A stretch of 32,612 bases of DNA, taken from positions 1 to 32,612 of the forward strand of contig NZ_JAVIKH010000021.1 of NCBI RefSeq assembly GCF_033962415.1. The letters are read 5' to 3'. The DNA comes from Candidatus Cetobacterium colombiensis (lineage in GTDB: Bacteria > Fusobacteriota > Fusobacteriia > Fusobacteriales > Fusobacteriaceae). Positions 3,981-29,148 of the stretch are shown piece after piece (the stretch's first letter is position 1; every line of letters begins with the position of its first letter). The translations under genes and the position numbers were made by a program. Under the pieces are notes generated by a model, which had not been told where the DNA came from, did not search any database, and worked only from the letters and a program-made list of their open reading frames with translations.

Positions 3981-3982
3981 AG

Positions 3983-7195: not shown

Positions 7196-7221
7196 TTTTT
7201 TATCCTCCTAATTTTTAGTTT

Positions 7222-10434: not shown

Positions 10435-11532
10435 ATGAAGAAATATAATTTAGCTTTTAGATTTAGAATACATCCAAATGAAGTTCAAGTGAACTTGATT
10501 TTACAAACTTTTGGTTGTGTTAGGTTTGTATATAACAAAATTTTAGCTAAAGCTGATGAAACATACAAATTAGAGGGTAAAAACAAAATCATTACTCCAG
10601 CTTCTCTTAAATCTGAATTTCCATTTTTGAAAGAAGTTGATAGTCTAGCCTTAGCTAATGCTCAAATGAATGTTAAAACTGCTTTCGCTAATTTTTTTAG
10701 AACTAAAAAAGGTTTTCCTAAATTCAAATCTAAAAAATCTGCTAGAAAATCTTATTCTACAAATAGTGTTAACAACTCTATTAGAATTGAGAGTACTTTC
10801 TTAAAGCTCCCTAAATTAGGATTAGTTAAAGCTAAATTTCATAGAGATATACCTCAAAATTATAAAATTAAATCTGCCACTATTAGCCAAGAACCTAATG
10901 GGGCTTTTTACGTTTCTATTCTTACTGAATTTGAAAAAGATATAAAAGAAGTACCAAGCGATAATAATATCGTTGGGCTTGATTTTTCTATGAAAGAACT
11001 TTTTGTCAGCTCTGATAACCAAAGAGCTGACTATCCTAGATTTTTCAGAAAATTAGAAACTAAATTAGGTAAAGCTCAAAGAGAACTATCTCGTAAAGTT
11101 AAATTCTCAAGCAATTGGAATAAGGCTAAATTAAAAGTCGCTAAAATCCATCAATCTATCAAAAATAGTAGAAAAGATTTTTTACATAAGTTATCAAAAA
11201 AATTAGTTACAAAGTATAATGCGATTATCATTGAAGACCTAAATATGAAAGGTATGAGCGGAGCATTAAACTTTGGTAAATCTGTCGCTGATAACGGGTG
11301 GGCAATGTTCACAACTATGCTTCAATATAAGGCTATATTTTTAGGAAAACAAGTAATAAAAATAGATAAATGGTTTCCTAGTTCTAAAACTTGCTCTTCT
11401 TGTGGGAATATAAAAGATTCACTTTCTTTAGGAGAGAGAGCATATAACTGTGAATGTGGTCATACTATGGATAGAGATCTTAATGCTAGTATAAATATTC
11501 GTGAAGTTGGTAGAACTCTACTAGCTTATTAA
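10435..11532 (+). CDS. tnpB: TnpB RNA-guided nuclease
   Basis: TnpB proteins are RuvC-type nucleases guided by an omega RNA taken from the element's right end; they help retain the element at its site. All catalytic residues appear intact: RuvC-I Asp183 in GLDFSMKEL, RuvC-II Glu267 in IIIEDLN and RuvC-III Asp348 in MDRDLNAS. The zinc finger is Cys320, Cys323, Cys339 and Cys341. The N-terminal WED/REC-like part begins KYNLAFRFRIHPN. With ATG at 10435, nine bases after GGAGG, the protein has 365 residues, normal for the family. The frame is open further left (to 10309), but that region is the element's left-end hairpin and lacks a binding site. Confidence 0.95.
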   Translation: MKKYNLAFRFRIHPNEVQVNLILQTFGCVRFVYNKILAKADETYKLEGKNKIITPASLKSEFPFLKEVDSLALANAQMNVKTAFANFFRTKKGFPKFKSKKSARKSYSTNSVNNSIRIESTFLKLPKLGLVKAKFHRDIPQNYKIKSATISQEPNGAFYVSILTEFEKDIKEVPSDNNIVGLDFSMKELFVSSDNQRADYPRFFRKLETKLGKAQRELSRKVKFSSNWNKAKLKVAKIHQSIKNSRKDFLHKLSKKLVTKYNAIIIEDLNMKGMSGALNFGKSVADNGWAMFTTMLQYKAIFLGKQVIKIDKWFPSSKTCSSCGNIKDSLSLGERAYNCECGHTMDRDLNASINIREVGRTLLAY

Positions 11533-12371: not shown

Positions 12372-13778
12372 TTAAAGTGGGAAAGTTAGGTGTCGTACCT
12401 CTAAATTTCCTAGGGAGTTTTTAAGAGCTCCTTCAAAAACTCCAACACATTCAATATTATGAGATTTTTTAAAATCTTCAAATAGATTTATATTGATAAA
12501 ATTAGTTATAGTTACATTGTTATCATTTTCAATTTTACCTTTTAATTGTTCTAAAAGGTGTTTTGGAATTGTGTTGTATACTATGACTAATTTTTTTTCA
12601 TCCTCTTTTTTACTATTGGAGTTTACATACAGATAAAGAGACACAACATCTGTAAAAGATATATTCCAATAAGACTTTCTTAACTCTTTAAATAGCTTTA
12701 TACATTTTTCAATAGTTGAATCATCTAAATTTAAATTTAAAAAAGACATTTCAAATATTGGAAGATAGTGTGCTTGTTTACTGGCAAATGAAGTTCTAGA
12801 TAGAAATTTATCTAAAAATTTGTCACTTGAAATATCCAGATTAAGTGTATTTTTTAAAATTCTTTTGAAAACTGTATAATGATTTTTTAAAAAAACTGTT
12901 TCTTCTGGAAATAAACCTTTGCAAATTTTTAAAATATTTTGAAGATACTTAATATCTTCAAAGGAAATTTCTCCTAAAAGTGAAGTTTGAAAAAATTCAA
13001 AAACACAATTTAAAGAGTTTCTGTTAAAAATATTCTCAAAATAAATTTTAAAACTATCTAAAGAATTAAGATTATTTTTTATTTTATTTTCAGAAGATGT
13101 ATCATCATCTAAAAATTTAAAGCTTATATAAAAGCTTTTTAGCAGTTCTCTATTATAAAAAAAAGAATCACAGTTGCCAATGGAAATAAAGTATTCAATT
13201 TGCCTTTGCAAAACTTCGTCAATCTCTTCATTATGAAAAATATGTGAAAAAGACTTTTTAAAAAGTTCTGGCATATATTTTTCTTCTACGAGATATTTAT
13301 ATATATATGTACAAAGAGCTCTTTTTCTATTTATGAACTCACCCTCTAAGAAAACCCCTTTTCCAGAGACACTGTGCACATCTAAAGAATAAATTTCTAT
13401 ATTTTTTTTAATGGTTACAAGATCTCCATTTAAAGTTCTTCTAGAAACATCTAGAGATTCAGAAAGACTTTGTAAATTTAAAGTACTTTTTAAAAGTAAG
13501 TGCAAAGTCAAATAGAAAATTCTATCATCTTTTGAAATAGTTTGTTCTTTTTTTAAAAAAGAACGAAGGGTGTTGGTGTTCAAAATACATTTAATAATCT
13601 CATCAGTTTTTGTAGTATTTTTACCGTATGGTACCCCTTTATAAATTTCTTTTAAGTATGAACAAATATTAGCTTTATTACTGTCCAAAAACATCTCTAA
13701 AAAGTCCAAGCTATTACCTTTTGTAAATTCTAAAAGCTCCAACAATCGCAAGTGTTTTGTATTTACACTTATTGTCAT
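12372..13778 (-). CDS. Mga/BglG-like transcriptional regulator
   Basis: A DNA-binding regulator of the Mga/AtxA/BglG-antiterminator superfamily. The best-preserved part is the HTH and following wing at about residues 95-150 (SLSESLDVSRRTLNGDLVTIKKNIEIYSLDVHS, then GKGVFLEGE), a family hallmark. The central helical region would correspond to PRD-like domains, but I see no clear conserved phosphorylatable His pair, and the C-terminal part resembles an EIIB-like alpha/beta fold (KLVIVYNTIPKHLLEQLKG). 468 residues fits the family. The start is taken as ATG at 13778, because AAAGGGG lies about nine bases upstream; an in-frame ATG at 13799 is within that leader and lacks its own site. A consensus promoter is upstream. 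Its target may be the divergent exported-protein genes, which is inference only. Confidence 0.78.
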   Translation of the reverse strand: MTISVNTKHLRLLELLEFTKGNSLDFLEMFLDSNKANICSYLKEIYKGVPYGKNTTKTDEIIKCILNTNTLRSFLKKEQTISKDDRIFYLTLHLLLKSTLNLQSLSESLDVSRRTLNGDLVTIKKNIEIYSLDVHSVSGKGVFLEGEFINRKRALCTYIYKYLVEEKYMPELFKKSFSHIFHNEEIDEVLQRQIEYFISIGNCDSFFYNRELLKSFYISFKFLDDDTSSENKIKNNLNSLDSFKIYFENIFNRNSLNCVFEFFQTSLLGEISFEDIKYLQNILKICKGLFPEETVFLKNHYTVFKRILKNTLNLDISSDKFLDKFLSRTSFASKQAHYLPIFEMSFLNLNLDDSTIEKCIKLFKELRKSYWNISFTDVVSLYLYVNSNSKKEDEKKLVIVYNTIPKHLLEQLKGKIENDNNVTITNFININLFEDFKKSHNIECVGVFEGALKNSLGNLEVRHLTFPL

Positions 13779-13818
13779 AAAAACATCCCCTTTTTCCATT
13801 TGTTACAAATCCAGAATT

Positions 13819-13987: not shown

Positions 13988-14809
13988 ATGACAAAAAAAA
14001 TTTTACTAGGAGCTTTAGCCCTAAGCTCACTTAGTTTTGCATCTGAGATATCAACGACTGCTGGAGAAAGTGCTGTTTTTGCTAAAAAAACTGCAGAAAA
14101 CAACAAACCTCTATTGTATTTAGCTGAAAATTTCCATGAAATGGCTATTTTACCTGGATTTACTATGGGAGCACCATCAGGACTAGTTTCTGGTTATGGA
14201 GTTGCTTTTGCAGGTATTGCTGGAAGAAGAGATAGTGACACAACAGATGGTGCTATGGCTTTTGGAATGGGATTTGGAAATCCAGATACTATAGGTGGAT
14301 CAGTAACTTTAGGAATTGGAAGTGTTGATCCAAGAGATGGAGGATCTTTTAACAGAGGAAACTTAAATTTAACTGTGGGACACCACTTTAAAGAGTATGG
14401 ACTTGGATGGTCTGCGGGTATGACTGGACTTGACCTTTGGCATGCAAAGAGTATAGATGGAGATTATCAAGATCCAAGTTTTTATACTTCTTTGACAAAA
14501 TTATGGGCAAATGATTTTGTTCCTTTTTCTGTAACAGCAGGATTTGGAAATAACTCTTTTGCAGATATAAACAGAAGCAAGGATAGAAAAGATAAGATAG
14601 ATGGATTTGGAGCAATATCTTTCTATTTAATACCTCAATTAAGTGTAGTTGTAGATTATACAAGCAATATTTTAACAACAGGAATCAGTGTGGTTCCATT
14701 CCCAGATTACCCTATTTCAGTTAACTTAGGAGCTACTAATTTAAATGAACAAGGACCAAATGATAAAGTAGCTGCAATTGGATCTATCGCTGCAGCATAT
14801 GTATTTTAA
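13988..14809 (+). CDS. Exported protein, probable outer-membrane beta-barrel
   Basis: No named family recognised. A clean signal peptide (KKILLGALALSSLSFA, cut before SEIS) sends it across the inner membrane. The 273 residues are rich in Gly and alternating polar/hydrophobic strands (for example SVTLGIGSVDPRDGG and FSVTAGFGNNSF), and the chain ends in AAAYVF. A terminal aromatic residue is the usual outer-membrane barrel insertion signal. GGAGGGGG lies just before ATG at 13988. It forms a two-gene unit with the small exported protein 13 bases downstream, ended by the 15183-15210 hairpin, and lies just before the polysaccharide locus. Possible roles are a porin-like channel or a surface-polysaccharide partner; neither is shown by the sequence. 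Confidence 0.72.
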   Translation: MTKKILLGALALSSLSFASEISTTAGESAVFAKKTAENNKPLLYLAENFHEMAILPGFTMGAPSGLVSGYGVAFAGIAGRRDSDTTDGAMAFGMGFGNPDTIGGSVTLGIGSVDPRDGGSFNRGNLNLTVGHHFKEYGLGWSAGMTGLDLWHAKSIDGDYQDPSFYTSLTKLWANDFVPFSVTAGFGNNSFADINRSKDRKDKIDGFGAISFYLIPQLSVVVDYTSNILTTGISVVPFPDYPISVNLGATNLNEQGPNDKVAAIGSIAAAYVF

Positions 14810-14822
14810 TGGGAGGTAAATA

Positions 14823-15116
14823 ATGAAAAAAATTATATTTATGACAATGTCATTACTTATGATGAGTAGTTTAGCTTTTGGAGCTGAAGGAGATCAAAAT
14901 GCTCCTCAAAATGAGGCACCAGTAGCTCAAGAAACTACGGAAACACCTGAGAATCTATCTAAAGGTGATTCATTTATGACAGCTTTTGGAATGAAAGGTT
15001 CAAATTTAGTTGTTAGAAGAAGAGTGAGATTAACAGCAGCTCATACAAATACTCATTCAACAGCAGTAAACTTAACTCATTCACAAAATACACCATATAC
15101 ATATGGAAATAGATAA
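14823..15116 (+). CDS. Small exported protein of unknown function
   Basis: 97 residues with a clear signal peptide (KKIIFMTMSLLMMSSLAFGA, cut before EGDQ), leaving about 75 residues in the periplasm or outside. The mature part starts with a Gln/Glu/Pro/Thr-rich stretch, then a basic patch (VVRRRVRLTAA) and a His/Thr/Asn-rich tail (HTNTHSTAVNLTHSQNTPY). No family is recognised. GGGAGG precedes its ATG, and it follows the beta-barrel gene closely, so the two are probably co-expressed and may work together. His/Thr spacing in the tail could allow metal binding, but this is speculative. Confidence 0.7.
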   Translation: MKKIIFMTMSLLMMSSLAFGAEGDQNAPQNEAPVAQETTETPENLSKGDSFMTAFGMKGSNLVVRRRVRLTAAHTNTHSTAVNLTHSQNTPYTYGNR

Positions 15117-15210: not shown

Positions 15211-15238
15211 ATGAAAATATTACATTATGGGGAGAGGT

Positions 15239-15982
15239 ATGAGGAGAAAAGAGGATTTTTACGAAGATGATTTTTATGAAGACGAGGAAGAATTAGATTT
15301 AATGGATCTTGTCTTTACACTACTTAGAAGATGGAAATTAATAACATTAATAGCTATACCAATATTTGGACTTGGAGTTTTCTTTGCTATGACAAGACCA
15401 ACAGTTTATAAGGCTGAGATGACTATGATGGTATCAAGTGGAAGAAACTTTAGTGCTACTTCATTAGATGGCGGAGAGTTATCAGTAAACCAAAAGTTAG
15501 CTACAACTTATGCAGAAATAGCTAAAAGTAACGCTATTTTAAAAAATGTTATAAAAAAATATGATTTAGATACATCACTAGGAGGATTAAGAGGAAGTGT
15601 AACAATTGCTCCAGTTGAAGATACAGAACTAATGCAATTGACATATAAAAATTCAGATCCAGCTTTAGCAGCAGCAGTGGTAAACGAAATTGGAAATGAG
15701 TTTATGTTAAAAGTTCGTGAGGTTATGAACTTTCAAAATATAAAAGTTGTTGAACCAGCTGAGATTCCAAAGGAAGCGTTACCTAAAAAGCGTGTACTAA
15801 TACTTGCAATATCTGCAGTACTATCAGTTATGGTAGGATGTATGGCGGCCTTTATAGTGGAGTTTTTCTTCTGTAAACTGCGTAAACCTAAAGACATAGA
15901 GAAAATTTTAGGGACAACTATGTTAGGAATGGTTCCTGATTTTAGTCTTTCTTTAGTGGAAGGGGGAAAAGATGGAAAATAA
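15239..15982 (+). CDS. Wzz-type polysaccharide co-polymerase (chain-length determinant)
   Basis: An inner-membrane protein that, with the BY-kinase, controls polymer length and assembly of the surface polysaccharide. The layout is typical: an acidic cytoplasmic start (EDFYEDDFYEDEEELDLMDL), TM1 near residues 30-55 (KLITLIAIPIFGLGVFFAM), a periplasmic domain, and TM2 near 180-205 ending in a short basic tail (CKLRKPKDIEKILG). Proline before TM2 (PKEALPKKR) matches the family. The start is set at ATG 15239, because GGGGAGAGG lies just upstream; an in-frame ATG at 15227 has no binding site. It has no fused kinase domain: the kinase is the next gene, overlapping by 11 bases. Confidence 0.9.
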   Translation: MRRKEDFYEDDFYEDEEELDLMDLVFTLLRRWKLITLIAIPIFGLGVFFAMTRPTVYKAEMTMMVSSGRNFSATSLDGGELSVNQKLATTYAEIAKSNAILKNVIKKYDLDTSLGGLRGSVTIAPVEDTELMQLTYKNSDPALAAAVVNEIGNEFMLKVREVMNFQNIKVVEPAEIPKEALPKKRVLILAISAVLSVMVGCMAAFIVEFFFCKLRKPKDIEKILGTTMLGMVPDFSLSLVEGGKDGK

Positions 15983-16796
15983 AAGACAGATATTTTTTAA
16001 AGATGCAAACAATCACGAGATGAATGAAGCACTTAGAATTATTAGAACAAACTTACACTTTTTAAATGAAAAAGAGAGCGGAAGAACAGTTCTAGTTACA
16101 AGTACTGTTCCTAAAGAGGGGAAAAGTGTTATAGCTTCAAACTATGCAATGAGTATAGCTATTACAGGAAAAAAAGTATTACTAATAGATTGTGATATTA
16201 GAAGACCAAGAGCTCACGAAAGTTTTGGAGTATCTTTTAATAAAGGATTAGAATCAGTGCTTTCTGGTGAGTGTAAAGTAGAGGATGTAATTTTAAAAAA
16301 CGTAGAGAAAAATTTAGACATACTTCCTACAAGAAATGTGGCACACAATGTAACAGAGCTTTTTTTAGGGGATAAAATGAAAGCTTTACTAGAGGAGTTA
16401 AAAGAGGAATACAATACAGTGGTACTAGATACACCACCACTTATAATTGTAAGTGATGCAGCAATACTTTCTAAGTACTGTGATGGAGTTGTTTATATTG
16501 TAGCTTATGATCAAGTTGCAAAAAGAGAGTTGGAGTTTGGAAAAACTATGCTAAACAATGCCAAGGCAAATATATATGGATTTGTTGTAAACAAGGTGGA
16601 TAAAAATGGACTTTCTTATGGAAACTATGGATATTATAACAACAACTATTCATACTATAAAGATTACTACACAGAAGAGGGAGAAGCTTTAGCAAGGGAA
16701 TATAAACCTCAAAAAGGGTTTAAGGGATTTATTGAAAAGTTGAAAAGAGACTACAAGAGACAACTAAGTGGAGATCAAAAGGGGAAAAGATGGTAG
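15972..16796 (+). CDS. Bacterial tyrosine kinase (BY-kinase, CpsD/Wzc-C type)
   Basis: Cytoplasmic autophosphorylating kinase that cycles with the Wzz-type activator and the CpsB-type phosphatase to run polymer synthesis. Walker A TSTVPKEGKS is at residues 43-52, Walker A' LLIDCDIRRP at 70-79 and Walker B VVLDTPP at 150-156. The C-terminus carries a dense tyrosine cluster (Tyr216, 219, 221, 222, 226, 228, 229, 232, 233), the usual phosphorylation sites. 274 residues is slightly longer than CpsD because of a basic tail after the cluster. ATG at 15972 is preceded by AGGGGG inside the end of the Wzz gene. Confidence 0.93.
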   Translation: MENKRQIFFKDANNHEMNEALRIIRTNLHFLNEKESGRTVLVTSTVPKEGKSVIASNYAMSIAITGKKVLLIDCDIRRPRAHESFGVSFNKGLESVLSGECKVEDVILKNVEKNLDILPTRNVAHNVTELFLGDKMKALLEELKEEYNTVVLDTPPLIIVSDAAILSKYCDGVVYIVAYDQVAKRELEFGKTMLNNAKANIYGFVVNKVDKNGLSYGNYGYYNNNYSYYKDYYTEEGEALAREYKPQKGFKGFIEKLKRDYKRQLSGDQKGKRW

Positions 16797-17545
16797 ATAT
16801 CCACAGTCATATACTCTTTGGAGTAGATGACGGACCAGAAACTTTGGATGAATCTATTGAGATGATCAGAAAGGGAATGGAACTGGGTTTTCGTGAGTTT
16901 TACTTAACTTCTCACTATGGAAAAGGGCGATTTCGTAATGAGAACTACAATGAAAACTTTGAAATTTTAAAAGAAAAGTGTCAGAACTTAAATTTAGATA
17001 TAGAGTTACATAGGGGAAATGAAATATATTTAGATGAAAATATTTTAAAAACACTGGAAGAAAAAAACTACAATGTTATGAAAGAAAAGTATCTTCTAGT
17101 GGAGTTTTCACCAATGACGCTACCAGTTGTAGGCAAGCATATGGTGAAGAAAGTTTTAGAAAAAAATTATATTCCAATAGTTGCACATGTGGAAAGATAC
17201 AACCATTTTCGTGGGAGTGATCTTATGGAGCTAAAGAGGTTAGGGGCTTTGCTTCAGCTGAACATTGGTGGGGAAAAACCAAAACATATTAAAAGACTAT
17301 TGAAAGAAGGGAAAATTGACTTTTTAGCTAGTGATGCTCATAGATTGGAGAAAAGGGGTTATAATTTAGAGGAGTTAAAAAGATTAAATGGATTATTGGG
17401 AGAGAAAAGGATAAAAAGAATGACTAACTTTTTAGAGTTAGTAGAGGAGGGAGAAAATAGTGAGAAGATACAATCTAATAGCAAGTTTTTTAGTTCTTTC
17501 TTTAGGGGCATACTCACAGGGACTTGGTTTAGAAGAGATTCTTAA
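16790..17545 (+). CDS. CpsB/YwqE-type PHP-domain tyrosine phosphatase
   Basis: Manganese-dependent phosphatase that removes phosphate from the BY-kinase tyrosine cluster. PHP metal-site motifs are present: DIHSHILFGVDDGP at residues 3-16, TSHYGKGR, HVERYNHF and ASDAHR. 251 residues. It overlaps the kinase gene by 7 bases, with GGGGAAAAG before the ATG. The last 28 codons run over the start of the TolC-like gene in another frame, an 86-base overlap. Those residues (SEKIQSNSKFF onward) go beyond where the family fold usually ends, so the tail is probably dispensable or reflects loss of an earlier stop. Confidence 0.92.
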   Translation: MVDIHSHILFGVDDGPETLDESIEMIRKGMELGFREFYLTSHYGKGRFRNENYNENFEILKEKCQNLNLDIELHRGNEIYLDENILKTLEEKNYNVMKEKYLLVEFSPMTLPVVGKHMVKKVLEKNYIPIVAHVERYNHFRGSDLMELKRLGALLQLNIGGEKPKHIKRLLKEGKIDFLASDAHRLEKRGYNLEELKRLNGLLGEKRIKRMTNFLELVEEGENSEKIQSNSKFFSSFFRGILTGTWFRRDS

Positions 17546-18698
17546 AAGAGTTGAAACAGGAAACCCTGAAGTAAAAGTTAAAGAGTTAGATGTAATGATA
17601 AAAGAAAAGGGAAAGAAAAAAGCATTTAGAAACCTTATTTTACCACCAATTACAATGGAAAGTGAAAATGATTGGGAAACAGCTAAAAAAGAGGGGTTTG
17701 GATTTGAGAAAATAGAAGCAGTAATTCCTATTTTTCAAGGTGGAAAAATAATGAATACATATAAAAGATCAAAGAGTGAATTAGAGTTAGCTAAAGAGGA
17801 GAAAAAGCTAGCTGTTTACTCTTGGCAAGAAACTGCTGTAAATGCATATTTTACTAATTTAAACTACAGAAAGCAAAAAGAGATTACAGATTCAACAATA
17901 GATGCTCTACAAAAACAGCATAATAGATTAAATGGATTATATGAGGAGAATAAATTAATTGCTAAATCTGAAATTTTAAAAGTGGAAGCGAACTTAGAAA
18001 ATAATAAGGCGTTAAATTATGAAAATTCTCAAAAAGAAAGAGCTGCAAAAGAAACGTTAATGCAACTTTTAGGTTATGATTTAGATAGGCAGGTAAATTT
18101 AGATGAGTTTAATACAACGAACTATTTAAAATCACTTGGAGCTATAAAAAAAGTTGAAGATCCTAAAAATACAACTTTGGGAAAAGCTCAAAGTTTAATG
18201 GTAGAGTTAGCAGAGTATGATTTAAAAATTGCAAAGGCTGATTTATATCCAACACTTTATGTAAAACCATCTCATACTTTTAAAGAGGAAAATTTGAATA
18301 CAAACAAATATGAAACTGTAAATGAGGGAAGAGTTGAAGTTGGAATAAGATATACCTTTGCATGGGGAGCAACTTTAGATTCTGTAGATCAAAGTGAATA
18401 TCAGTTAGATCAAGCTAAAATAAAATATGACAACAATATTTCAGGAATAAAGTTAGATATGAGAAACAAACTGGGAGAGATTGAATCTCTTGCTGGTCAA
18501 AGTGAAGCTCAAAAGAAAAGAGTGGAGTTACTGAGAGAAAACTTAAAAATTGATAACTTAAGATACGACAGTGAATTAGTTACAACTTTTGATTACTTAA
18601 ACTCAGTAAATCAACTAAAAAGTGCAGAGGAAGATTACTATAAACTTCAAAGATCACTTGTTTTAGCGGTGATTGAGTATGAGAATCTATATAAATAG
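17460..18698 (+). CDS. TolC-like outer-membrane efflux/secretion protein
   Basis: Outer-membrane channel-tunnel of a tripartite exporter. It has a signal peptide (about residues 1-20, ending in LSLGAYSQG), then the family opening LEEILKRVETGNPEVK, and long amphipathic helices in two repeats, the second ending with TTFDYLNSVNQLKSAEEDYYKLQRSLVLAVIEYENLYK. 412 residues fits TolC relatives. The start is GTG at 17460 after GAGGAGGGAG; this overlaps the CpsB-type gene. It is followed directly by membrane-fusion and MacB-like permease genes, so the three likely form one machine within the polysaccharide locus. Confidence 0.88.
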   Translation: MRRYNLIASFLVLSLGAYSQGLGLEEILKRVETGNPEVKVKELDVMIKEKGKKKAFRNLILPPITMESENDWETAKKEGFGFEKIEAVIPIFQGGKIMNTYKRSKSELELAKEEKKLAVYSWQETAVNAYFTNLNYRKQKEITDSTIDALQKQHNRLNGLYEENKLIAKSEILKVEANLENNKALNYENSQKERAAKETLMQLLGYDLDRQVNLDEFNTTNYLKSLGAIKKVEDPKNTTLGKAQSLMVELAEYDLKIAKADLYPTLYVKPSHTFKEENLNTNKYETVNEGRVEVGIRYTFAWGATLDSVDQSEYQLDQAKIKYDNNISGIKLDMRNKLGEIESLAGQSEAQKKRVELLRENLKIDNLRYDSELVTTFDYLNSVNQLKSAEEDYYKLQRSLVLAVIEYENLYK

Positions 18699-18707
18699 GG
18701 GATAAAT

Positions 18708-20027
18708 ATGAATAAAAAAATAATGATAGGTGCATTGGTAGCAGCTTTAGCTCTTGGAGGTTATCTAGCAGTTGATAAAGTAACTGGAAAAAATGTCAAA
18801 GTATCTAAAATAGAGATAGGAAATCTTTCAAGCTCTTTACTTTACTCTGGAATGGTAGCTGCAGGAGAAGTTGTACCTGTATATGTGGAAGCACCAGTGC
18901 TAGTGGAATCAGTTTTAGCCCGTGTGGGACAAGAGGTTGAACCTGGAGATAAACTGATGACTTTTAGTAGTAAAAGTGTAATTGAAAATGATAAAGAACT
19001 GAGAATAAATGAGTTAGACATAAAGGATGTTAAACTTAAAATAGCTGACTTAGATGGGGGATCACTAAAGTTAGAACTAGACAACAGAAAGTTAGAGATG
19101 AGAAACCTTGAAGAAAGAATAAAGGGAGATGAAAGAAGACTTCCAGTTTTAGCGTCAGAGCTTAGAACTTTAAAAGAAAAAGCTGTGGCATACAAAAGAC
19201 TTTTAGATGCTGATGGAATCTCTAGTACAGAGGCCAATAGAGCTGCAACAGAGGCTGAAGGAAAAGCTGTGGAGTTTGAAGATTTAAAAACTAACTTAGA
19301 GTTAAATAGACAAAAGTTTGAGCTATCAGCAGTGAGCTTTGAAAGTTTAACAAGACAGTTAGCAATAGAAGAGGCTAAATTAAAATCAAACTTAGAGAAG
19401 TTACAGCTAGGAAATGAGATTTTAGTTCGTCGTGCAGAACAACTGAAAAAACCACTAGAAGCACCAGTGGCTGGAGTTATAACAGCAATAGATGTAAGTG
19501 AAGGAAGCAACGCTTTTAGTGGACAGAGATTACTTGCCATTTCTCCAAAGGGAGAGAGCGTAGTTAAAGTGGAAGTTCCAATGTATGGAGCTAACAGTGT
19601 ACTAAAGGGACAAAGGGCTATGGTTAGATCATCTTCATCAGGGGGAGATCTAATATATTCTGGTGTTGTTTCTAGAGTTTCAAGTGTGGCTCGTGAAAGT
19701 GTACTAGGTGGAAAAAATGATAAGGTTATAGAGGTAGAGGTAAAAATTTCAGAAAAAAATGAGTTGAAACCTGGATTTATAACTGATGTGGAAATAAGTA
19801 GCGAAAGTAGTCGTAGTGTTGCAACAGTTTCATCTTTCTCTGTTATAGAAGAGGGAGATAAAAGTTATGTTTATATAGTGGATGAGGGAAGAGTTCGTAA
19901 AACTGAGATTAAAGTGGGAACAAAAACTGCCACAGACTATGAAGTGCTAAACTTGCCTTTAGGAACTGAAGTTATTGTAAATCCATTTAAAGTTTCAAAT
20001 GGAGAGAGAGTAAAGGCTGTGATTTAA
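18708..20027 (+). CDS. HlyD/MacA-type membrane-fusion protein
   Basis: Periplasmic adaptor joining an inner-membrane transporter to the TolC-like channel. One N-terminal membrane anchor (residues about 4-22), a first lipoyl half (APVLVESVLARVGQEVEPGDKLMTF), a long coiled coil (about residues 95-240), a second lipoyl half (LEAPVAGVITAIDVSEGSNAFSGQ), then beta-barrel and membrane-proximal domains. 439 residues, typical. GGGGAT precedes the ATG, and its TAA overlaps the permease ATG by one base. Confidence 0.9.
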   Translation: MNKKIMIGALVAALALGGYLAVDKVTGKNVKVSKIEIGNLSSSLLYSGMVAAGEVVPVYVEAPVLVESVLARVGQEVEPGDKLMTFSSKSVIENDKELRINELDIKDVKLKIADLDGGSLKLELDNRKLEMRNLEERIKGDERRLPVLASELRTLKEKAVAYKRLLDADGISSTEANRAATEAEGKAVEFEDLKTNLELNRQKFELSAVSFESLTRQLAIEEAKLKSNLEKLQLGNEILVRRAEQLKKPLEAPVAGVITAIDVSEGSNAFSGQRLLAISPKGESVVKVEVPMYGANSVLKGQRAMVRSSSSGGDLIYSGVVSRVSSVARESVLGGKNDKVIEVEVKISEKNELKPGFITDVEISSESSRSVATVSSFSVIEEGDKSYVYIVDEGRVRKTEIKVGTKTATDYEVLNLPLGTEVIVNPFKVSNGERVKAVI

Positions 20028-21103
20028 TGAGATTTTGGATGGCAGCTAAGTTTTTAAAAGGAAATATCACAAGAGCTATGTTTCCACTTTTAGCAGTGGT
20101 AATTGGAGCTATGACTCTTATTATGACACTGTCTTTGGGGGATGGAGCGAAAAATATTATAAATAAAGATTTATCTGCCATTGGAGGTAACAGAATTCTT
20201 TTGGGAGATACAACTTTAACTAAAAGAGACTTAGAGCTAATGGAAAGGTTGCCATTTGTAGAATATGCAGTTTTTCCAGAGGAGAGAGTTTTAATTAACA
20301 ATACATTGTTTAGGGGATACAGTAAAAAAGCTTTGTTATCTATGAATTTACCAATTTTAAAAGATAATGAGGTAGTACTTGATAAAATACAGTTTCCAAA
20401 TGGAAAAGTTGGAGACACAATTGATTTAGAAACAAAATTGGGAAAAAGGAAATTTACAATTAGGGATTACTATCAAGAGGAAAGTCCATTTGAAACTATG
20501 AGAATGGGTAATAGAGTCATAGTTAGTGACGAAACTTTTGAAAGAATCTTTGGAAGGAGTAACTACAATAGCTTAGTAGTCTCCTTTCCACAAGATGAAG
20601 ACGGAGAGGAATATATACCAGTTGTACTAAGAGAGCTTAACAGGTCTCGGTTTAGTTACAGTCAGGTGCGTGTTTTAGAAACGCCAGCAGTCTATAAAAA
20701 AGTGGAGAGGATAAAAAGCTTTGTAGGAAAAAGTTTATTTATCCTCTCTTTTATTTCTTTAATTGTTGGTGGAGCTGGGATTTTAAATCTAATAGCTGCG
20801 GCAGTGAGAGAGAGAACATCATATATAGGGATACTGAGAACAGTGGGGATGGATAAAAGAAGTTTGATGGAAATATTTTTAATAGAGGCAGCAGTGGTGA
20901 TAACTTTAGGAGCTATTATAGGAATAATCCTTGGAGTGGCGGTGTCGTACCTAGCTGGAAATTTACTAAAAATACCACCATATTTTAACTTTTTAAAGAT
21001 GGTAGGAGCGCTAGTTCTTACAATGGGTGTTGGTCTAATATTTGGAGTTTTCCCAGCTAAAAGAGCAGGAGAGTTAGAGATAGTAGAGGCACTGAAAATT
21101 TAA
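20027..21103 (+). CDS. MacB/FtsX-type ABC permease without ATPase domain
   Basis: An inner-membrane subunit of a type VII (MacB-like) ABC transporter that moves substrate through the adaptor and TolC-like channel by mechanotransmission. TM1 is at about residues 18-37, followed by a periplasmic MacB core domain and three C-terminal TMs in an FtsX domain. The tail holds RERTSYIGILRTVGMDKRSLMEIFLIEAA and FPAKRAGELEIVEALKI. 358 residues matches a permease alone: MacB itself carries an N-terminal ATPase, which is absent. No separate ABC ATPase occurs in this locus; the only one in the window is phnC. Confidence 0.88.
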   Translation: MRFWMAAKFLKGNITRAMFPLLAVVIGAMTLIMTLSLGDGAKNIINKDLSAIGGNRILLGDTTLTKRDLELMERLPFVEYAVFPEERVLINNTLFRGYSKKALLSMNLPILKDNEVVLDKIQFPNGKVGDTIDLETKLGKRKFTIRDYYQEESPFETMRMGNRVIVSDETFERIFGRSNYNSLVVSFPQDEDGEEYIPVVLRELNRSRFSYSQVRVLETPAVYKKVERIKSFVGKSLFILSFISLIVGGAGILNLIAAAVRERTSYIGILRTVGMDKRSLMEIFLIEAAVVITLGAIIGIILGVAVSYLAGNLLKIPPYFNFLKMVGALVLTMGVGLIFGVFPAKRAGELEIVEALKI

Positions 21104-21119: not shown

Positions 21120-22370
21120 ATGAAACATAGTCAGAACAGTAAAGGAAGAATTATTTACACAATGACGCTACTTTTACTATTTGAAATAGTTAGAGAAAAT
21201 TTTAGACTAGATAGAGAATTAATATTTTATTCGTTATTTCCAATTATGATTTTTTCTTACTATATATTTGATACTTTTTCATTTAATAAAAAATATAGAT
21301 ATCGGGAGTTTATAATATCTGGAGTTATAAATGGATTTGTTTTCTATGTTTTGGCGATTTTTTATGAAAAACCTACTATGATATTTGGATGGGCATTCTA
21401 TACATTGATGCAAAATATTGTTAAGTATTTTTATAACTCAACTTTTAGTCCAATGGAAAGAGTGGTTTTACTTACAGACAAAAAAGAAGAAGTACTTGAA
21501 AGAGTTATTGAAAGAAATGAGAAACTTTGCTTTGAAGGATGTGTGAACTTAGGTGAAATAAATAGAATAAAAGAGATAAATCCTAGTGAAGTTATATATC
21601 CAATAGAGATGACAGATCGAGTTGTAGATGATATTTTTGATTTGAAAATGTCAGGAGTAAAGGTAAAGGATTCTATGGCATTTTTACAAGAGGTTGAAGG
21701 AAAGATTGATGTAGATAGTTTATCTAAAGATTGGGTTATAAAGGCTAAAGGTTTTGAAGTTTTAAGTTCTGGTGTAGAGCAAAGAATAAAAAGATTTTTA
21801 GATATAGCTATGTCAGTAGTTATAGTCTTAGTTGGAGCTCCTTTTATGGTATTTACATATTTTCTTGTAAAGTTAGATAATCCTAAAAACTTTTTAAATA
21901 ATCCAGCGTTTTTTAAACAAAAGCGTATAGGAAGTGGTGGAAAAGAGTTTGAAATAGTGAAGTTTAGATCTATGAGATTACATGATCCAAAAGAACACTC
22001 AAAATATGCAAGCAAAAAAGATGATAGAATTACTAGAGTAGGAAAGTTTATAAGAAAAACAAGGTTAGACGAACTACCTCAAATTTTAAATGTGTTAAAA
22101 GGGGATATGAGTTTTGTTGGACCTAGACCAGAGTGGAATGAGTTGGGCAGAGAGTATGAGAAAGAAATAAATATGTACAAGGTACGTTATGCAGTAAAAC
22201 CAGGGCTAACAGGTTGGGCTCAAGTTATGTATCCATATGGAGCTAGTTTAGATGATGCAAAGAAAAAGTTAGAATATGATATCTATTATATAAAACACCA
22301 AAATGTTATCTTAGATATAATGATATTATTTAAAACAGTTAAAGTAGTACTGTTTGGAAAGGGGATGTAG
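21120..22370 (+). CDS. Polyprenyl-phosphate sugar-1-phosphate transferase (initiating enzyme)
   Basis: Starts the repeat unit by moving a sugar-1-phosphate from a nucleotide sugar to undecaprenyl phosphate at the inner membrane. The N-terminal half has about four to five membrane segments and a CoA-binding-like middle. The catalytic domain from about residue 225 has RFLDIAMSVVIVLVGAPF, KQKRIGSGGKEFEIVKFRSMR, RKTRLDELPQ, VGPRP and KPGLTGWAQV, all typical of the WbaP/EpsE sugar transferase family. 416 residues fits. GGGAGGGG precedes the ATG, 17 bases after the permease stop. The sugar (Glc, Gal or an amino sugar) cannot be told. Confidence 0.94.
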   Translation: MKHSQNSKGRIIYTMTLLLLFEIVRENFRLDRELIFYSLFPIMIFSYYIFDTFSFNKKYRYREFIISGVINGFVFYVLAIFYEKPTMIFGWAFYTLMQNIVKYFYNSTFSPMERVVLLTDKKEEVLERVIERNEKLCFEGCVNLGEINRIKEINPSEVIYPIEMTDRVVDDIFDLKMSGVKVKDSMAFLQEVEGKIDVDSLSKDWVIKAKGFEVLSSGVEQRIKRFLDIAMSVVIVLVGAPFMVFTYFLVKLDNPKNFLNNPAFFKQKRIGSGGKEFEIVKFRSMRLHDPKEHSKYASKKDDRITRVGKFIRKTRLDELPQILNVLKGDMSFVGPRPEWNELGREYEKEINMYKVRYAVKPGLTGWAQVMYPYGASLDDAKKKLEYDIYYIKHQNVILDIMILFKTVKVVLFGKGM

Positions 22371-22371
22371 A

Positions 22372-23169
22372 ATGTATGATATTACTTCTAGTATTGTAAC
22401 TTACAATACTAAAATAGATGAATTACAAAAAGCAATAGAAAGTTTTTTAAATACAGATTTAAATGTTCAACTATATATATCAGATAATTCACCTACTGAT
22501 GATTTAAAAGAATTTATAAATAAATTTAATGATAAAAGAATAAATTATACTTTTAATGATAGAAATGGTGGATATGGCTGGGGACATAATCAAATAATAA
22601 AAAAAGTGATGGGAAAATCAAACTATCACTTAATATTAAATCCAGATATTTATTTTAAAAATGGAGTTTTGGAAGAGTTGTTTTCTTACATGGAAAAAAA
22701 TAGAGATACTGGAAATATAATGCCAATGGTGAAATACCCCAATGGTGAAATTCAATATTTATGTAAAAGAATTCCCAGTCCAAAAGATCTATTTTTAAGA
22801 AAGTTTTGTCCAATTAAGTGGATTATAGAGAGAAATAATTTGAAATATGAAATGAGAGAAACAGGATATAATCAGATAATGAATGTTCCTATTTTATCTG
22901 GATGTTTTATGTTTATAAGAACAGAGGTATTTGAAAATGTAGGATTATTTGATGAAAGATATTTTATGTATATGGAGGATTTTGATTTAAGTAGAAGGAT
23001 ACATGAAAAGTATAAAACAATTTTTTATCCTAAAGTTGAAATTACTCATGCTCATGCAAAAGAGTCTTTTAAAAATAAAAAAATGGCTAAAATACATTTA
23101 AAAGCAGCAATAAAATATTTCAATAAATGGGGTTGGCTATTTGATAAAAAAAGGAGAACAACGGCATGA
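22372..23169 (+). CDS. GT2-family glycosyltransferase
   Basis: A cytoplasmic or membrane-associated transferase adding one sugar to the repeat unit. The GT-A fold is shown by an N-terminal ITSSIVTYNT strand, SDNSPTDD, DRNGGYGWGHNQI, the metal-binding LILNPDIYF, and LSGCFMFIRTEVFENVGLFDERYFMYMEDFDLSRRI. This pattern is common among rhamnosyltransferases. Start ATG 22372 is chosen because AAAGGGG is seven bases upstream; an upstream in-frame ATG at 22354 lies inside the previous gene and before that site. 265 residues. The donor is perhaps dTDP-rhamnose, by locus context only. Confidence 0.9.
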   Translation: MYDITSSIVTYNTKIDELQKAIESFLNTDLNVQLYISDNSPTDDLKEFINKFNDKRINYTFNDRNGGYGWGHNQIIKKVMGKSNYHLILNPDIYFKNGVLEELFSYMEKNRDTGNIMPMVKYPNGEIQYLCKRIPSPKDLFLRKFCPIKWIIERNNLKYEMRETGYNQIMNVPILSGCFMFIRTEVFENVGLFDERYFMYMEDFDLSRRIHEKYKTIFYPKVEITHAHAKESFKNKKMAKIHLKAAIKYFNKWGWLFDKKRRTTA

Positions 23170-24197
23170 AAATTTTATTAGATGGAAGACTAATATCGGA
23201 TAAACCAACAGGAATCTCAAGATATTCTAGAGAGTTGGTAAAAATTTATCAAAATCATTACGGCTATGAAAATGTAGAAGTTATCATAAATGAAGATTTA
23301 AAAGAAAAACCGTTTAAAGATATAAAAACAAAATTAAAACCTTTTAGTATGATTAATTTTTTTAGATTTCATAAATTTTTACAGGAGAGAGATGCTGAGG
23401 TATATCATAGCTTATATCACAGTAATAGTTTTTTTAAGGATAAAAAGAAAAAATATATAACAACATTTCACGATATAGGGCACAAAATTTTAAAAGGAAA
23501 AATTCATCACAATTATTTTAAAGATATTTTAGTTAAATTGGGAATTGAAGTTATTATAAGAAGAACTTTAAAAAATTCAGACATAGTTGTCTCAGTTTCT
23601 GAAACAACAAAAGAAGATATAAAAAGCGTATATAATTATAACTCTATTGTTATACCTGAAGGAATAAATGTTATATTAGTGGAGGATAAAGAAGTAGAGT
23701 GCTTAAAAAATACAAAATTTTTTTTATACGTTGGAAACTCAAGACCTAATAAAAATTTGAAATTTTTGATAGAAACATTTTTGACTTCAAACACAGAGTA
23801 TAAATTAGTTTTAGTTGGAAATAATAACAGTTTAGAAATAAATGATTCTAGGATAAAAAGTTTAGGATTTGTTTCTGATAATGAATTAAGCTGGCTATAT
23901 AAAAATTGTGAAGCCTTTATCTTTCCATCTTTATATGAGGGATTTGGGCTGCCAGTTTTAGAAGCTATATATAAAGGCAGCAAGGTTTATTGTTCCACAG
24001 GTGGATCACTAAAAGAATTTTCAGAAAAATTGGTAAAAAAATTCAGTCCACATAATGGAAGTGAGTTAAGATATCTTTTGGAAAATACAGATAAAATAAA
24101 ATTTGATGAAAAAGAGCAGTTGGAAGAGTTGGGAAAATATACTTGGAAAAATATAGAGATTTTAACTAAAGAAAAACTATTTAGTAAAATCTATTGA
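23166..24197 (+). CDS. GT4-family glycosyltransferase
   Basis: A GT-B fold retaining glycosyltransferase, often mannosyl or glucosyl. The N-terminal part has LLDGRLISDKPTGISRYSRELV, the linker region YVGNSRPNKNLKFLIETF, and the nucleotide-binding FPSLYEGFGLPVLEA motif with the paired Glu residues. 343 residues fits GT4. Its ATG overlaps the previous gene's TGA (ATGA), showing translational coupling. With manC in the same operon, GDP-mannose is a reasonable donor, but this is not shown. Confidence 0.9.
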   Translation: MKILLDGRLISDKPTGISRYSRELVKIYQNHYGYENVEVIINEDLKEKPFKDIKTKLKPFSMINFFRFHKFLQERDAEVYHSLYHSNSFFKDKKKKYITTFHDIGHKILKGKIHHNYFKDILVKLGIEVIIRRTLKNSDIVVSVSETTKEDIKSVYNYNSIVIPEGINVILVEDKEVECLKNTKFFLYVGNSRPNKNLKFLIETFLTSNTEYKLVLVGNNNSLEINDSRIKSLGFVSDNELSWLYKNCEAFIFPSLYEGFGLPVLEAIYKGSKVYCSTGGSLKEFSEKLVKKFSPHNGSELRYLLENTDKIKFDEKEQLEELGKYTWKNIEILTKEKLFSKIY

Positions 24198-24212
24198 AGG
24201 GAGGGAGAAAAA

Positions 24213-25055
24213 ATGGAAAAAATATGTGGTGTAGTTGTACTTTATAATCCTCCAAAATCGATTCTTGAAAATATAGAAAGTTACATAAAGTATTTAGATA
24301 AATTATATATTATTGATAATTCAGAAAAAATTAATGAGCAAGAAATTAAAAAAATTAAATTATTTTCAAATAAAATAGAATACACAAGTTTTAGTGAAAA
24401 TAAAGGAATTGGAAAAGCTTTGAATTTAAGTTTAAAAAAATTTTTACTATCAGATGCTGAATGGATTTTAACAATGGATCAAGATAGCAAATTTGAAAAA
24501 AATGATTTCAAAATATACTTAGATAAAGTTTTTGCTGAAGATGAGAAAAATAAAATTGGTATTTTTTCACCAAATCATTTATTAAAAAATAAAAAAAAAA
24601 TAGAGAAAAATAAATACGCTAAAAGAGTTATGTGTTCAGGAAATATAATATCAAAAAAAATAATAAAAGAAATAGGCAAATATAATGAAGATTTTTTTAT
24701 AGATGAAGTTGATCATGAATATTGTTACAGAGTTTTAAAAAAAAATTATAAAATAAAAGTATTTGGAGATATTATTTTAAATCATAATTTAGGTGAAATA
24801 AATAAAGAAGTAAGAATACCCAAATTTATGCTTCCTACTAATCACAGTGCACTAAGAAGATATTATATTACAAGAAATAAAATGTATGTTTTTAAAAAAT
24901 ATCCAGAAGTAAGATTAAAATACATTTTAACTTTTATCAATGATTTTTTTAAAATAATGTTTTTTGAGAATAATAAAAAAGAAAAATTGAAGATGATGAA
25001 AATCGGTTTTATGCATTATAAAAAAAATATAGTAGGAAAATATAAAGAAGCATAA
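24213..25055 (+). CDS. GT2-family glycosyltransferase, rhamnosyltransferase-like
   Basis: Adds a sugar during repeat-unit assembly. Motifs are GVVVLYNPPKSILENIESY, LYIIDNSEK, SENKGIGKALNLSL and ILTMDQDSKFEK, as in RfbF-type rhamnosyltransferases, followed by a DEVDHEYCYRV acceptor-side acidic motif. 280 residues, a little short for the subgroup (about 300). AAGGGAGGGAG precedes ATG. The DNA is notably A-rich, with long poly-A stretches, compared with the flanking wzz and rml genes. Confidence 0.88.
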   Translation: MEKICGVVVLYNPPKSILENIESYIKYLDKLYIIDNSEKINEQEIKKIKLFSNKIEYTSFSENKGIGKALNLSLKKFLLSDAEWILTMDQDSKFEKNDFKIYLDKVFAEDEKNKIGIFSPNHLLKNKKKIEKNKYAKRVMCSGNIISKKIIKEIGKYNEDFFIDEVDHEYCYRVLKKNYKIKVFGDIILNHNLGEINKEVRIPKFMLPTNHSALRRYYITRNKMYVFKKYPEVRLKYILTFINDFFKIMFFENNKKEKLKMMKIGFMHYKKNIVGKYKEA

Positions 25056-25083
25056 ATATAAAGAAATTAAGGAGAAAATTAGA

Positions 25084-26163
25084 ATGTTAGCAGCTATAAT
25101 TATGGCAGGAGGAAGTGGGGAAAGATTTTGGCCACTATCTACTCCTGATAAACCAAAGCAGCTTTTAAATATATTTTCAGATAAAACAATGATAAGAGAA
25201 ACTGTGGATAGAATAGCACCAATAATTTCAAAAGAAAATATATTTATAGCAACAAATGAATTACAAGTAAATACAGTAGAACAAGAGCTAAATGATATAC
25301 CAAAGGAAAATATAATAATTGAACCAGCTTTTAAAGATACTGCAGCAGCAATAGGATACTCAACATTATTGATTGAAAACAGATTTAAAGATAAATTAAG
25401 AGAAGGAGAGAAAATAGAGATTGTAGTTTTAGCTTCAGACCATTTAGTAAGAAAAGAGGATGAATTTCGAGAGGCTATTAAACTAGCAGCGGAAGAAGCT
25501 TCCAAAAGTGGAGTTATAGTTACATTAGGAATAAAACCTAATAAACCAGAAACAGGATATGGTTATATTGAGATAAAAGAAGATAGTACTTTAGAATTAA
25601 ATAAAATATATAAAGTTAAAAGATTTCGTGAAAAACCAAATCAAGAAACAGCGGAAGATTACTTAGCTTCTGGAAGATACTTATGGAATTCTGGAATGTT
25701 TATATTTACAACTGAAACTATTTTTAAAAATTTTGATGTATTAATGGAAGAACATACAGAAATTTTTTCTAATATTAAGCAGAAAATTAATAACAATGTT
25801 CAAGGGATAGAGCTCGCTAATTTAATAAGGGAAGACTTTGAAAATTTTGAAAAAATTTCTATAGATTTTGGAATAATGGAATATTCAAGAAATATCAGAG
25901 TTATACCAGTTGATATAGAATGGAATGATATAGGATCTTTCAATGCATTAGAAGAGGTTTTTGATAAAAATGATTCTGGAAATATTGTGAGATATTGTAA
26001 TGTTAGGGAGTTGGACTCTTCAGATAATATAGTTATAGGAAAAGATGTGACAATCTCTCTTTTAGGAGTAAAAAATTTGGTAGTTGTTAAAAATGGTGAC
26101 AATATTTTAATAGCAAATAAATTTAGAACTCAAGATATAAAAAAAATAATAAAGAAACATTAA
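25084..26163 (+). CDS. manC: Mannose-1-phosphate guanylyltransferase
   Basis: Makes GDP-mannose from GTP and mannose-1-phosphate in the cytoplasm. The nucleotidyltransferase signature GGSGERFWPLS is at residues 9-19, followed by KPKQLLN. Further motifs are ASDHLV, GIKPNKPETGYGYIE, VKRFREKPN, YLWNSGMFIF and IEWNDIGSF. 359 residues equals the single-domain form; the C-terminal phosphomannose isomerase domain found in long ManC/AlgA proteins is absent. AAGGAG precedes ATG. No phosphomannomutase gene is seen in the window, so mannose-1-phosphate must come from elsewhere. Confidence 0.92.
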   Translation: MLAAIIMAGGSGERFWPLSTPDKPKQLLNIFSDKTMIRETVDRIAPIISKENIFIATNELQVNTVEQELNDIPKENIIIEPAFKDTAAAIGYSTLLIENRFKDKLREGEKIEIVVLASDHLVRKEDEFREAIKLAAEEASKSGVIVTLGIKPNKPETGYGYIEIKEDSTLELNKIYKVKRFREKPNQETAEDYLASGRYLWNSGMFIFTTETIFKNFDVLMEEHTEIFSNIKQKINNNVQGIELANLIREDFENFEKISIDFGIMEYSRNIRVIPVDIEWNDIGSFNALEEVFDKNDSGNIVRYCNVRELDSSDNIVIGKDVTISLLGVKNLVVVKNGDNILIANKFRTQDIKKIIKKH

Positions 26164-26173
26164 AGGATAAAAT

Positions 26174-27421
26174 ATGATAACAAATAAAATCAATAAATAT
26201 TTTCCATATATTTTAATATATATGTGTTATTACACAAATCTTCCTATAAAGTTAGAAGAGTTAACAATGATTAGCTTTATTATTTGGTGTATTTTAGAAG
26301 AAAAAATTTTTCGATTTAAATTAAACTTAAATTTAATAGGACTAATTTCAATTTTTGGGAGTGTTTCTTTAATACAGTCATATAAAAATAACTACCCAAT
26401 TGATAGAGTTTTAGAGCAATTATTGATAATAACAGTAATGTTTATAGGATACGATTTACTTTTTAAAAAATATGGTTATAAAAAATTATTTAGAATATAT
26501 TTAAAGATAAGTTATTTTATTTGCTTATTGGCGTTATTACAATTTGTAGTTTATTTTTTTCTAAAAATAGATATTTTAAGATATCCAATAGGTTGTAATA
26601 GTAGGATGTTGCCTGCTTTAACAGCTAATATAGCTAGAGTACGAAGTATAGCTTATGAACCAGGATGGTTTGCTCAAACATTGATTCCTTCTGTAGTTTA
26701 TAGTTTTGAAGTATTAATAAAATCTAAAAGATTTCAAAAAAAATATATAATAATAATAACAGTTTTTTTTATGACAATGTCAAGTGGAGCATTAGTGATA
26801 ATTCCTATTTATTTTATATTGAAGAAAATAAAAACTATAAAGCAAATTGTTATTTCTATCCCCTTACTAATTGGTGCTACATATTTAACTCAAGGAGTTT
26901 GGTATTCAAGGGTTCAGGAAACAATTACAAATTTTCAAAGTTTAAAAACTGGAATATTTTCTAATATTAATGCAAGTTCTTTTGCAATTTTATCTAATTT
27001 ATATGTTGCTTTAAATAATAATAATTTACTTTTAGGCGTTGGTCTAGGAAATCATCCATATAGTTATTTTAGAAATTTTATTGACAGAAAAGTGGGAATA
27101 TATCATTTTTATGGATTAAATGCTATGGATGGTTATTCACTTTTAACAAGAATGATATCTGAAGTAGGAATTATTTTCTGTTTTTTATTTTTATTATTTA
27201 TAATTAGAAATTTATATTTAAGAGACAATACGAGATCGATTATAAATATAGGAGCTTTTTGTGGAATATTAAGTTATCTAATAAGAGGTGGGCTTTATAC
27301 TAGGTTTGGAACAACATTTATAATTATGTTATTTTTTTATACAGGAAAAAATATGAAATATGTAAAAAAATATAATATAAAAAAGAGCGAGGTAAAAAAT
27401 GGTTGCAATAATATTGGTTAA
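26174..27421 (+). CDS. Wzy-like polysaccharide polymerase
   Basis: A predicted multi-pass membrane protein, about ten to twelve segments in 415 residues, that would join repeat units at the outer face of the inner membrane. Sequence in this group is poorly conserved; assignment rests on topology, the large periplasmic loop (including ARVRSIAYEPGWFAQTLIPS and LLLGVGLGNHPYSYF), and position among glycosyltransferases. A Wzx-type flippase would be larger and lack that loop pattern, so polymerase/O-antigen-ligase family is preferred. AAGGAT precedes ATG. It overlaps the next gene by 23 bases. Confidence 0.75.
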   Translation: MITNKINKYFPYILIYMCYYTNLPIKLEELTMISFIIWCILEEKIFRFKLNLNLIGLISIFGSVSLIQSYKNNYPIDRVLEQLLIITVMFIGYDLLFKKYGYKKLFRIYLKISYFICLLALLQFVVYFFLKIDILRYPIGCNSRMLPALTANIARVRSIAYEPGWFAQTLIPSVVYSFEVLIKSKRFQKKYIIIITVFFMTMSSGALVIIPIYFILKKIKTIKQIVISIPLLIGATYLTQGVWYSRVQETITNFQSLKTGIFSNINASSFAILSNLYVALNNNNLLLGVGLGNHPYSYFRNFIDRKVGIYHFYGLNAMDGYSLLTRMISEVGIIFCFLFLLFIIRNLYLRDNTRSIINIGAFCGILSYLIRGGLYTRFGTTFIIMLFFYTGKNMKYVKKYNIKKSEVKNGCNNIG

Positions 27422-28268: not shown

Positions 28269-28279
28269 GGAGGAATTAA

Positions 28280-29146: not shown

Positions 29147-29148
29147 TC

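Follow-up and report, generated by a model that had tools for sequence, protein, structure and literature searches.

How could a polysaccharide leave the cell at a locus that encodes no Wza-type exporter, and what could energise a MacB-type permease encoded there without an ATPase? Both questions are raised by a cassette of three genes, for a TolC-type channel, a periplasmic adaptor and a permease, in a stretch of 32,612 nucleotides of Candidatus Cetobacterium colombiensis (Fusobacteriota; assembly GCF_033962415.1, contig NZ_JAVIKH010000021.1, here C21). This whole stretch is referred to as the window. The host genome is a 2.80 Mb draft of 92 contigs, 98% complete, and it was compared with 61 genomes of its family and 35 genomes from three other families of the order. 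The answer favoured here, plausible if not quite probable, is that the locus encodes a Wza-less exporter of the Wzx/Wzy type that would work through TolC, together with an accessory permease that belongs with the phosphatase CpsB and most likely depends on a LolD-type housekeeping ATPase on loan.

The open reading frames of the cassette lie exactly at the coordinates named beforehand, on the forward strand. The TolC-type outer-membrane channel (17460-18698, 412 amino acids) has a GTG start codon with GGAGGG shortly upstream and matches OEP (PF02321, 7e-31). The HlyD/MacA-type adaptor (18708-20027, 439 amino acids) matches HlyD_3 (PF13437, 1e-13), HlyD_D23 (5e-9) and, below the cut-off, TIGR01730 (4e-22). 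The MacB/FtsX-type permease (20027-21103, 358 amino acids) matches FtsX (PF02687, 9e-19) and MacB_PCD (PF12704, 3e-7), both over their cut-offs, and its start overlaps the adaptor stop codon by one base. The cassette is preceded, on the same strand, by genes for a Wzz-type chain-length protein of 251 amino acids that is separate from the kinase (15227-15982; PF02706, 3e-14), a BY-kinase, which is a tyrosine autokinase (15972-16796; TIGR01007, 5e-47, over the cut-off), and a CpsB/CapC-type phosphatase of the PHP kind (16790-17545; PF19567, 1e-44), whose gene overlaps that of the channel by 86 bases. The polyprenyl-phosphate sugar-1-phosphate transferase expected to initiate synthesis (21120-22370, forward strand; PF02397, 1e-64) and further sugar genes follow. 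No ABC (ATP-binding cassette) ATPase is encoded among the exporter genes; of the window proteins scanned, just one, at 5514-6260, matches ABC_tran, and it is encoded beside genes of the phosphonate-transport type. An ABC exporter with a fused ATPase beside the adaptor, a trait of type I secretion, is likewise absent from the locus. The preliminary description of this DNA had placed an ATPase-less TolC-adaptor-MacB permease set between the phosphatase and the initiating transferase, and the coordinates, the Pfam matches and the absence of an ABC ATPase among these genes agree with it. The cassette also recurs beside wzz and the BY-kinase gene in relatives, where that description had proposed to look for it.

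The permeases form a clade of their own. Profile A1 retrieved 29 copies at E ≤ 2e-116 from 28 of the 61 family genomes, with the next match at 3e-57, and none from the other three families, represented by 35 genomes. Relatives with names are two uncultured Cetobacterium, Cetobacterium sp. 2A and Propionigenium maris. A scan of contigs for the permease returned 19 loci, of which four (L122-L125) are true relatives and 15 are weak C-terminal matches (14 from Idiomarina/Pseudidiomarina and one from an archaeon). The permease from G030 has an internal stop and was left out of alignment A1, the tree and the coupling-helix comparisons, which use 28 of the 29 copies. In a maximum-likelihood tree of 86 permeases all 28 form one group (support 100/98). 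The group joins 31 MacB-type permeases of the order (100/99), a position that rests on midpoint drawing of an unrooted tree and carries long-branch warnings, among them for cas25, cas26 and cas13. An ATPase is present in the fetched locus of 30 of the 31 MacB-type permeases. Beside the cassette, no MacB-type ATPase was found in the 28 relative loci read, within flanks of up to about 10 kb, shorter at contig ends. The ABC proteins in these flanks, identified through motifs and through resemblance to the single ABC ATPase of the window, are limited to one of 581 amino acids (L050) and one of 517 (L054), neither of the short MacB/LolD kind. The pattern is most simply explained if the linked ATPase was lost once, in the ancestor of the group. 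A separate permease-adaptor set at L182 (6737-10630, G039:C10) has no ABC ATPase in its fetched locus and a normal MacB coupling signature, and an ATPase-bearing set is located on C11 of the same genome.

The ratio of non-synonymous to synonymous substitution rates (dN/dS) of the permease is 0.07-0.30 in eight pairs, with high dS in several, and is looser than that of the neighbouring adaptor in all eight; these values rule out a dying gene. The copies of G006 and G009 share a long branch (1.86) and may be decaying. An artefact of assembly or strain is ruled out by the 29 copies in 28 genomes, one of which (G030) has an in-frame TAA. Chance arrangement was rejected because the gene order recurs in relatives and because of the dN/dS of the permease. 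A structural model of the permease (five sequences; predicted local distance difference test score, pLDDT, 71.4; predicted template-modelling score 0.44) has long helices at residues 14-50, 220-262, 277-314 and 322-348. Its best structural matches are MacB chains, 5lil (E = 5e-15) and 5gko (Z = 20.0, root-mean-square deviation 11.3 over 345 aligned residues); it also matches 5xu1, a Gram-positive relative of MacB, as well as LolCDE and FtsX, with a large overall deviation. The model supports membership in the family rather than a function.

The steadiest partner of the permease is CpsB. The phosphatase was found over its cut-off in 29 genomes, in 30 copies; permease and CpsB occur together in 27 genomes and are both absent from 31 (Fisher 7e-14, with relatedness ignored). 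For comparison, the permease is accompanied by the BY-kinase in 25 genomes and by the adaptor in 25. The three exceptions are all at contig ends and can be scored neither way: the CpsB gene of G021 ends 32 bases before the contig end, the contig in G060 is 3.4 kb long, and the permease gene of G057 opens towards the end of its contig. G054 carries two CpsB and two permeases. In G002, G006, G009 and G019 the two genes are present with no channel, adaptor or kinase near them, and neither a cassette-type adaptor nor a BY-kinase was found in the whole genomes of G006 (67% complete) and G009 (98% complete).

This pairing invites an explanation that needs no ATPase at all, in which CpsB, the BY-kinase or both act at the cytoplasmic face of the permease, so that the cycle of kinase and phosphatase opens and closes the route. 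Such a gate would fit the 27 genomes that share both genes, the doubled pair of G054, the four genomes in which the pair stands alone, and the disappearance of the MacB docking signature, described below, from residues 266, 270 and 283 in all 28 rows. Against it, both regions with which a MacB-type permease docks on its ATPase are conserved, and tyrosine-rich kinase tails persist where CpsB and the permease are missing, with 9-13 tyrosines in the last 60 residues in 12 of 14 rows; the window kinase, whose tyrosine-rich stretch is near the C-terminus, has 11. Elsewhere CpsB works with BY-kinases and no such permease, as the passages on the Porphyromonas gingivalis operon in PMC6759763 describe. 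The gate is regarded as unlikely. Loss of the tyrosine tail in the absence of CpsB would have tied the permease to the phosphorylation cycle; it was sought and not found. The two kinase rows low in tyrosine, L107 and the contig-edge fragment L110, have five each. A C-terminal extension of the kinase does not follow the permease either, L108 having the extension and no permease.

Among the CpsB of the window (16790-17545) and those of its relatives, many have a hydrophobic, basic C-terminal tail, long enough perhaps to touch the membrane. The tail was set aside and is not used as evidence: several loci have it coincide, in a different reading frame, with the beginning of the channel gene, and it is absent in G002, G006 and G009.

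The channel and the adaptor have a different distribution. No PF02563 match, the mark of Wza, was found in the host genome, in agreement with the preliminary description, and Wza is absent from 57 of the 61 family genomes and present in four. The search was repeated over the order, and 25 of 27 genomes with a BY-kinase lack PF02563, the two exceptions being G053 and G058. The BY-kinase family itself is found over its cut-off in 26 of the 96 genomes of the order, all in f1, the family of the host. The adaptor is present in 37 copies (E ≤ 1e-20), 32 of them within 5.5 kb of a BY-kinase gene; 23 of these 32 have a permease within 1 kb, and nine have neither permease nor CpsB near. The nine reduced loci belong to G002, G007, G019, G033, G040, G041, G042, G043 and G052. 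Eight retain the channel, which was not seen in G033 and is in two pieces in G043, where the locus is cut by a contig end. A separate Wzz gene is present in six (G002, G007, G033, G040, G041 and G052). By Pfam, Wzz is fused to the kinase in G019 (L103 3476-4870, 464 amino acids), ahead of channel and adaptor, and by length it is probably fused in G042. Kinase frames of 472-497 amino acids in L104 and L113 hint at the same fusion. The adaptor is followed by a Wzy_C-like gene in G040 (over the cut-off) and G041 (just under it), by EpsG in G019 and by a polysaccharide-synthesis gene in G052. Channels and adaptors of the reduced loci score mostly 150-780 bits against the window proteins, fragments less, whereas the MacB-type sets read score at most 93.

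Because the same types of channel and adaptor recur in these nine Wzz/BY-kinase loci without permease or CpsB, the two proteins look like a replacement for Wza. The preliminary description had proposed that the entire set might take over from the missing exporter; this role suits channel and adaptor better than the permease, whose steadiest partner is CpsB. Several observations weigh against the replacement. G053 and G058 have both the cassette and Wza, and the search for an exit covered PF02563 and no other family of outer-membrane exporters. In G002 the adaptor is followed by a DEAD helicase, not a sugar gene. Eight of the nine genomes with a reduced locus carry a permease elsewhere, which could act there in trans; G043 (96% complete) is the one genome in which channel and adaptor are present and a permease was looked for and not found. 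In most loci channel and adaptor genes touch that of the permease, as in an ordinary tripartite pump.

It is possible that the cassette is just such a pump, of the MacB type, placed within a polysaccharide locus to move another substrate (a protein, a lipid or a glycolipid) with a borrowed ATPase. Relatives of MacB do export varied substrates, such as the glycolipid of DevBCA-HgdD according to the account in PMC8277102, and the type I secretion pair of the sphingan gum pathway is described in passages of PMC9197254 with its substrate unsettled. The absence of Wza from 57 of the 61 genomes and the recurrence of channel and adaptor with Wzz and BY-kinase in nine further loci argue against the other substrate, which is considered quite unlikely.

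The energy source is approached through the docking helix. The permease part of MacB contacts the ATPase domain through two coupling helices, a major one located between transmembrane helices TM2 and TM3 and a minor C-terminal one, as described in the relevant passages of PMC5985334. The alignment shows that both regions are conserved in the permease clade; in the window permease they correspond to residues 260-288 (20804-20890, forward strand) and residues 343-358 (21053-21100, forward strand). Within the major region the MacB signature is gone. In 31 MacB-type rows, numbered as in the window, E266, R270, K271, A275 and Q283 are present in 31, 29, 31, 31 and 31, whereas the 28 clade rows keep them in 0, 0, 1, 3 and 0. 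At positions 261, 271, 273 and 283 the commonest residue of the clade is that of the Lol permease (R261, R271, M273 and I283). Identities by region were compared after a false pick, L067 (644 amino acids), had been excluded from the MacB-type set. The permease matches the MacB type better than it does Lol at the N-terminus (0.30 versus 0.23), in the periplasmic part (0.16 versus 0.14), in TM2 (0.30 versus 0.10) and in TM3-4 (0.36 versus 0.24); the coupling region alone is reversed, with 0.40 to the MacB type and 0.48 to Lol. Over its 29 residues this lean towards Lol is reached by 2 of 330 windows of residues, itself included. The lean is nevertheless modest, in that its 16-residue core is reached by 40 of 322 windows and residues 263, 275 and 287 depart from Lol, which counts against a LolD partner. 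The coupling helix is thus a lead to a borrowed ATPase of the LolD type and not proof of one.

The inventory of ATPases bears on the same choice. Three FtsX-domain permeases are encoded in the host genome. At E ≤ 1e-44 it has two ATPases of the MacB/LolD class, each adjoining one of the two permeases outside the cassette. The orphan MacB-type ATPase that the preliminary description had suggested seeking was not found in the host genome among ATPases of the MacB/LolD class. A dedicated ATPase encoded elsewhere in the genome would be compatible with a draft of 92 contigs, 98% complete, and with the third-best host ATPase, a protein of 378 amino acids on C7 at 5e-43; with both class ATPases located beside other permeases, it is judged highly improbable. 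Every one of the 61 family genomes has the class, and genomes with one such ATPase pull in opposite directions, because in G010 (93% complete) the sole ATPase of the class listed is of the LolD type, whereas G011 (94% complete) has the cassette and its sole class ATPase at E ≤ 1e-44 adjoins a MacB-type permease and belongs to the MacB set, not to LolD, which again weighs against a LolD partner. The G011 ATPase, like the position of the clade next to the MacB-type clade in the tree, favours a permease that borrows the ATPase of a MacB-type set instead. A docking helix without the MacB signature, and G010 with the LolD type alone listed, oppose this source, which is held to be very doubtful. Borrowing, raised in the preliminary description, is retained as the most likely way in which the permease is energised, and the lead points to LolD. 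Mechanical drive by some other partner, also suggested there, would be a conceivable alternative.

Put together, the favoured reading describes a Wzx/Wzy-type locus for exopolysaccharide or capsule in an outer-membrane bacterium, with a presumed polysaccharide substrate. A dedicated TolC channel and HlyD/MacA-type adaptor would stand in Wza's stead and work with Wzz and the BY-kinase. The permease would be an accessory belonging with CpsB, not the export motor as such. Ahead of the family's radiation, its clade would have dropped the ABC ATPase encoded alongside it and retained both docking regions, with which it would most likely dock in trans on a LolD-type housekeeping ATPase that it shares. 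That ATPase may be used to open, load or reset the conduit of adaptor and channel.

The arrangement resembles several known systems in part. As in MacAB-TolC, a type VII ABC system, channel and adaptor share an operon with a four-helix permease that has a MacB-type periplasmic domain and both coupling regions; unlike it, the cassette has no fused or linked ATPase, and its coupling helix no longer bears the MacB signature. The Wza-Wzc exporter (OPX plus PCP/BY-kinase) likewise unites a Wzz-type protein, BY-kinase, phosphatase and initiating transferase in one locus, but here a TolC-type channel and adaptor are found where Wza would be expected, and Wzz and kinase are separate short proteins. 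Ptk1-Php1 of P. gingivalis is also a BY-kinase beside a PHP/CpsB-type phosphatase in an outer-membrane bacterium, important for exopolysaccharide, whereas that three-gene operon is named in the passages concerned without channel, adaptor or permease (PMC6759763). LolCDE has a type VII permease, and the docking helix resembles that of the host's own Lol-type permease at four residues, but no LolD is linked here and the rest of the permease is nearer the MacB type. DevBCA-HgdD of heterocysts is a MacB-like exporter with a TolC relative and a surface glycolipid; it has its own ATPase, DevA, and sits in no Wzz/BY-kinase locus so far as the description in PMC8277102 goes. AtrB/AtrD of sphingan gum clusters tie an HlyD-family adaptor to gum production, but include a type I secretion permease/ATPase, according to the passages on them in PMC9197254. 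The open-licence PubMed Central literature searched yielded no account of TolC taking the place of Wza in Fusobacteria, and a search of PMC9603273 yielded no passage on TolC and Fusobacteria.

Downstream of the initiating transferase, the forward strand (22354-30254) encodes glycosyltransferases, nucleotide-sugar enzymes, a multi-span protein, an rmlC-like gene and a truncated rmlD. The multi-span protein (26174-27421) has no family match and may be the polymerase. There is no flippase-type match downstream before the contig end; a MatE protein is encoded at 1726-3063, away from the locus. Shuffled sequences contain promoter and terminator patterns just as often as the real one. The shortened rmlD frame has 175 amino acids, compared with 284 in L045 (region 29727-32612). 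Just after it lies a group II intron, with Rfam matches at 30272-30472 and 32560-32612 and a maturase at 30932-32542; the contig ends within this intron, which probably broke the assembly.

Upstream of the locus, the forward strand encodes a protein of 273 amino acids (13988-14809) of no known family, with a signal-peptide-like start and a terminal phenylalanine. Relatives are present in 14 of the 28 loci read and, among the reduced loci, in L102 and L108. The same region (13988-15116) also encodes a small protein that looks secreted. The last residue, as in many outer-membrane barrels, makes an outer-membrane protein possible; the structural model was useless for assigning a fold (pLDDT 28.7). 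A 475-residue HTH_11-domain protein on the minus strand (12372-13799) has relatives in the same place in L036, L037 and L038 and is a possible regulator. Further away are a gene for a TnpB-type RNA-guided endonuclease (10309-11532; OrfB_IS605 and Cas12f1-like TNB), with no matched TnpA in the window, and a minus-strand run of the phosphonate-transport type (3135-8496) that encodes a binding protein, an ATPase, two permeases, a metallo-beta-lactamase-fold hydrolase and a histidine phosphatase of branch 2.

If the favoured reading is true, a channel-adaptor route of the TolC kind at Wzz/BY-kinase loci would be a further exit for polymers, and it would explain how polymers leave the cell in an outer-membrane lineage with Gram-positive-style regulation of the capsule. 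The bolder proposal, that the family combines this further exit for Wzx/Wzy polysaccharides with a MacB-family permease gated by the CpsB/BY-kinase phosphotyrosine cycle in place of ATP hydrolysis by a nucleotide-binding domain, is improbable. In either case the permease, with its tie to the phosphatase, is a natural test case for two possibilities: that a type VII ABC permease is able to share an ATPase in trans, and that one is able to function with none at all.

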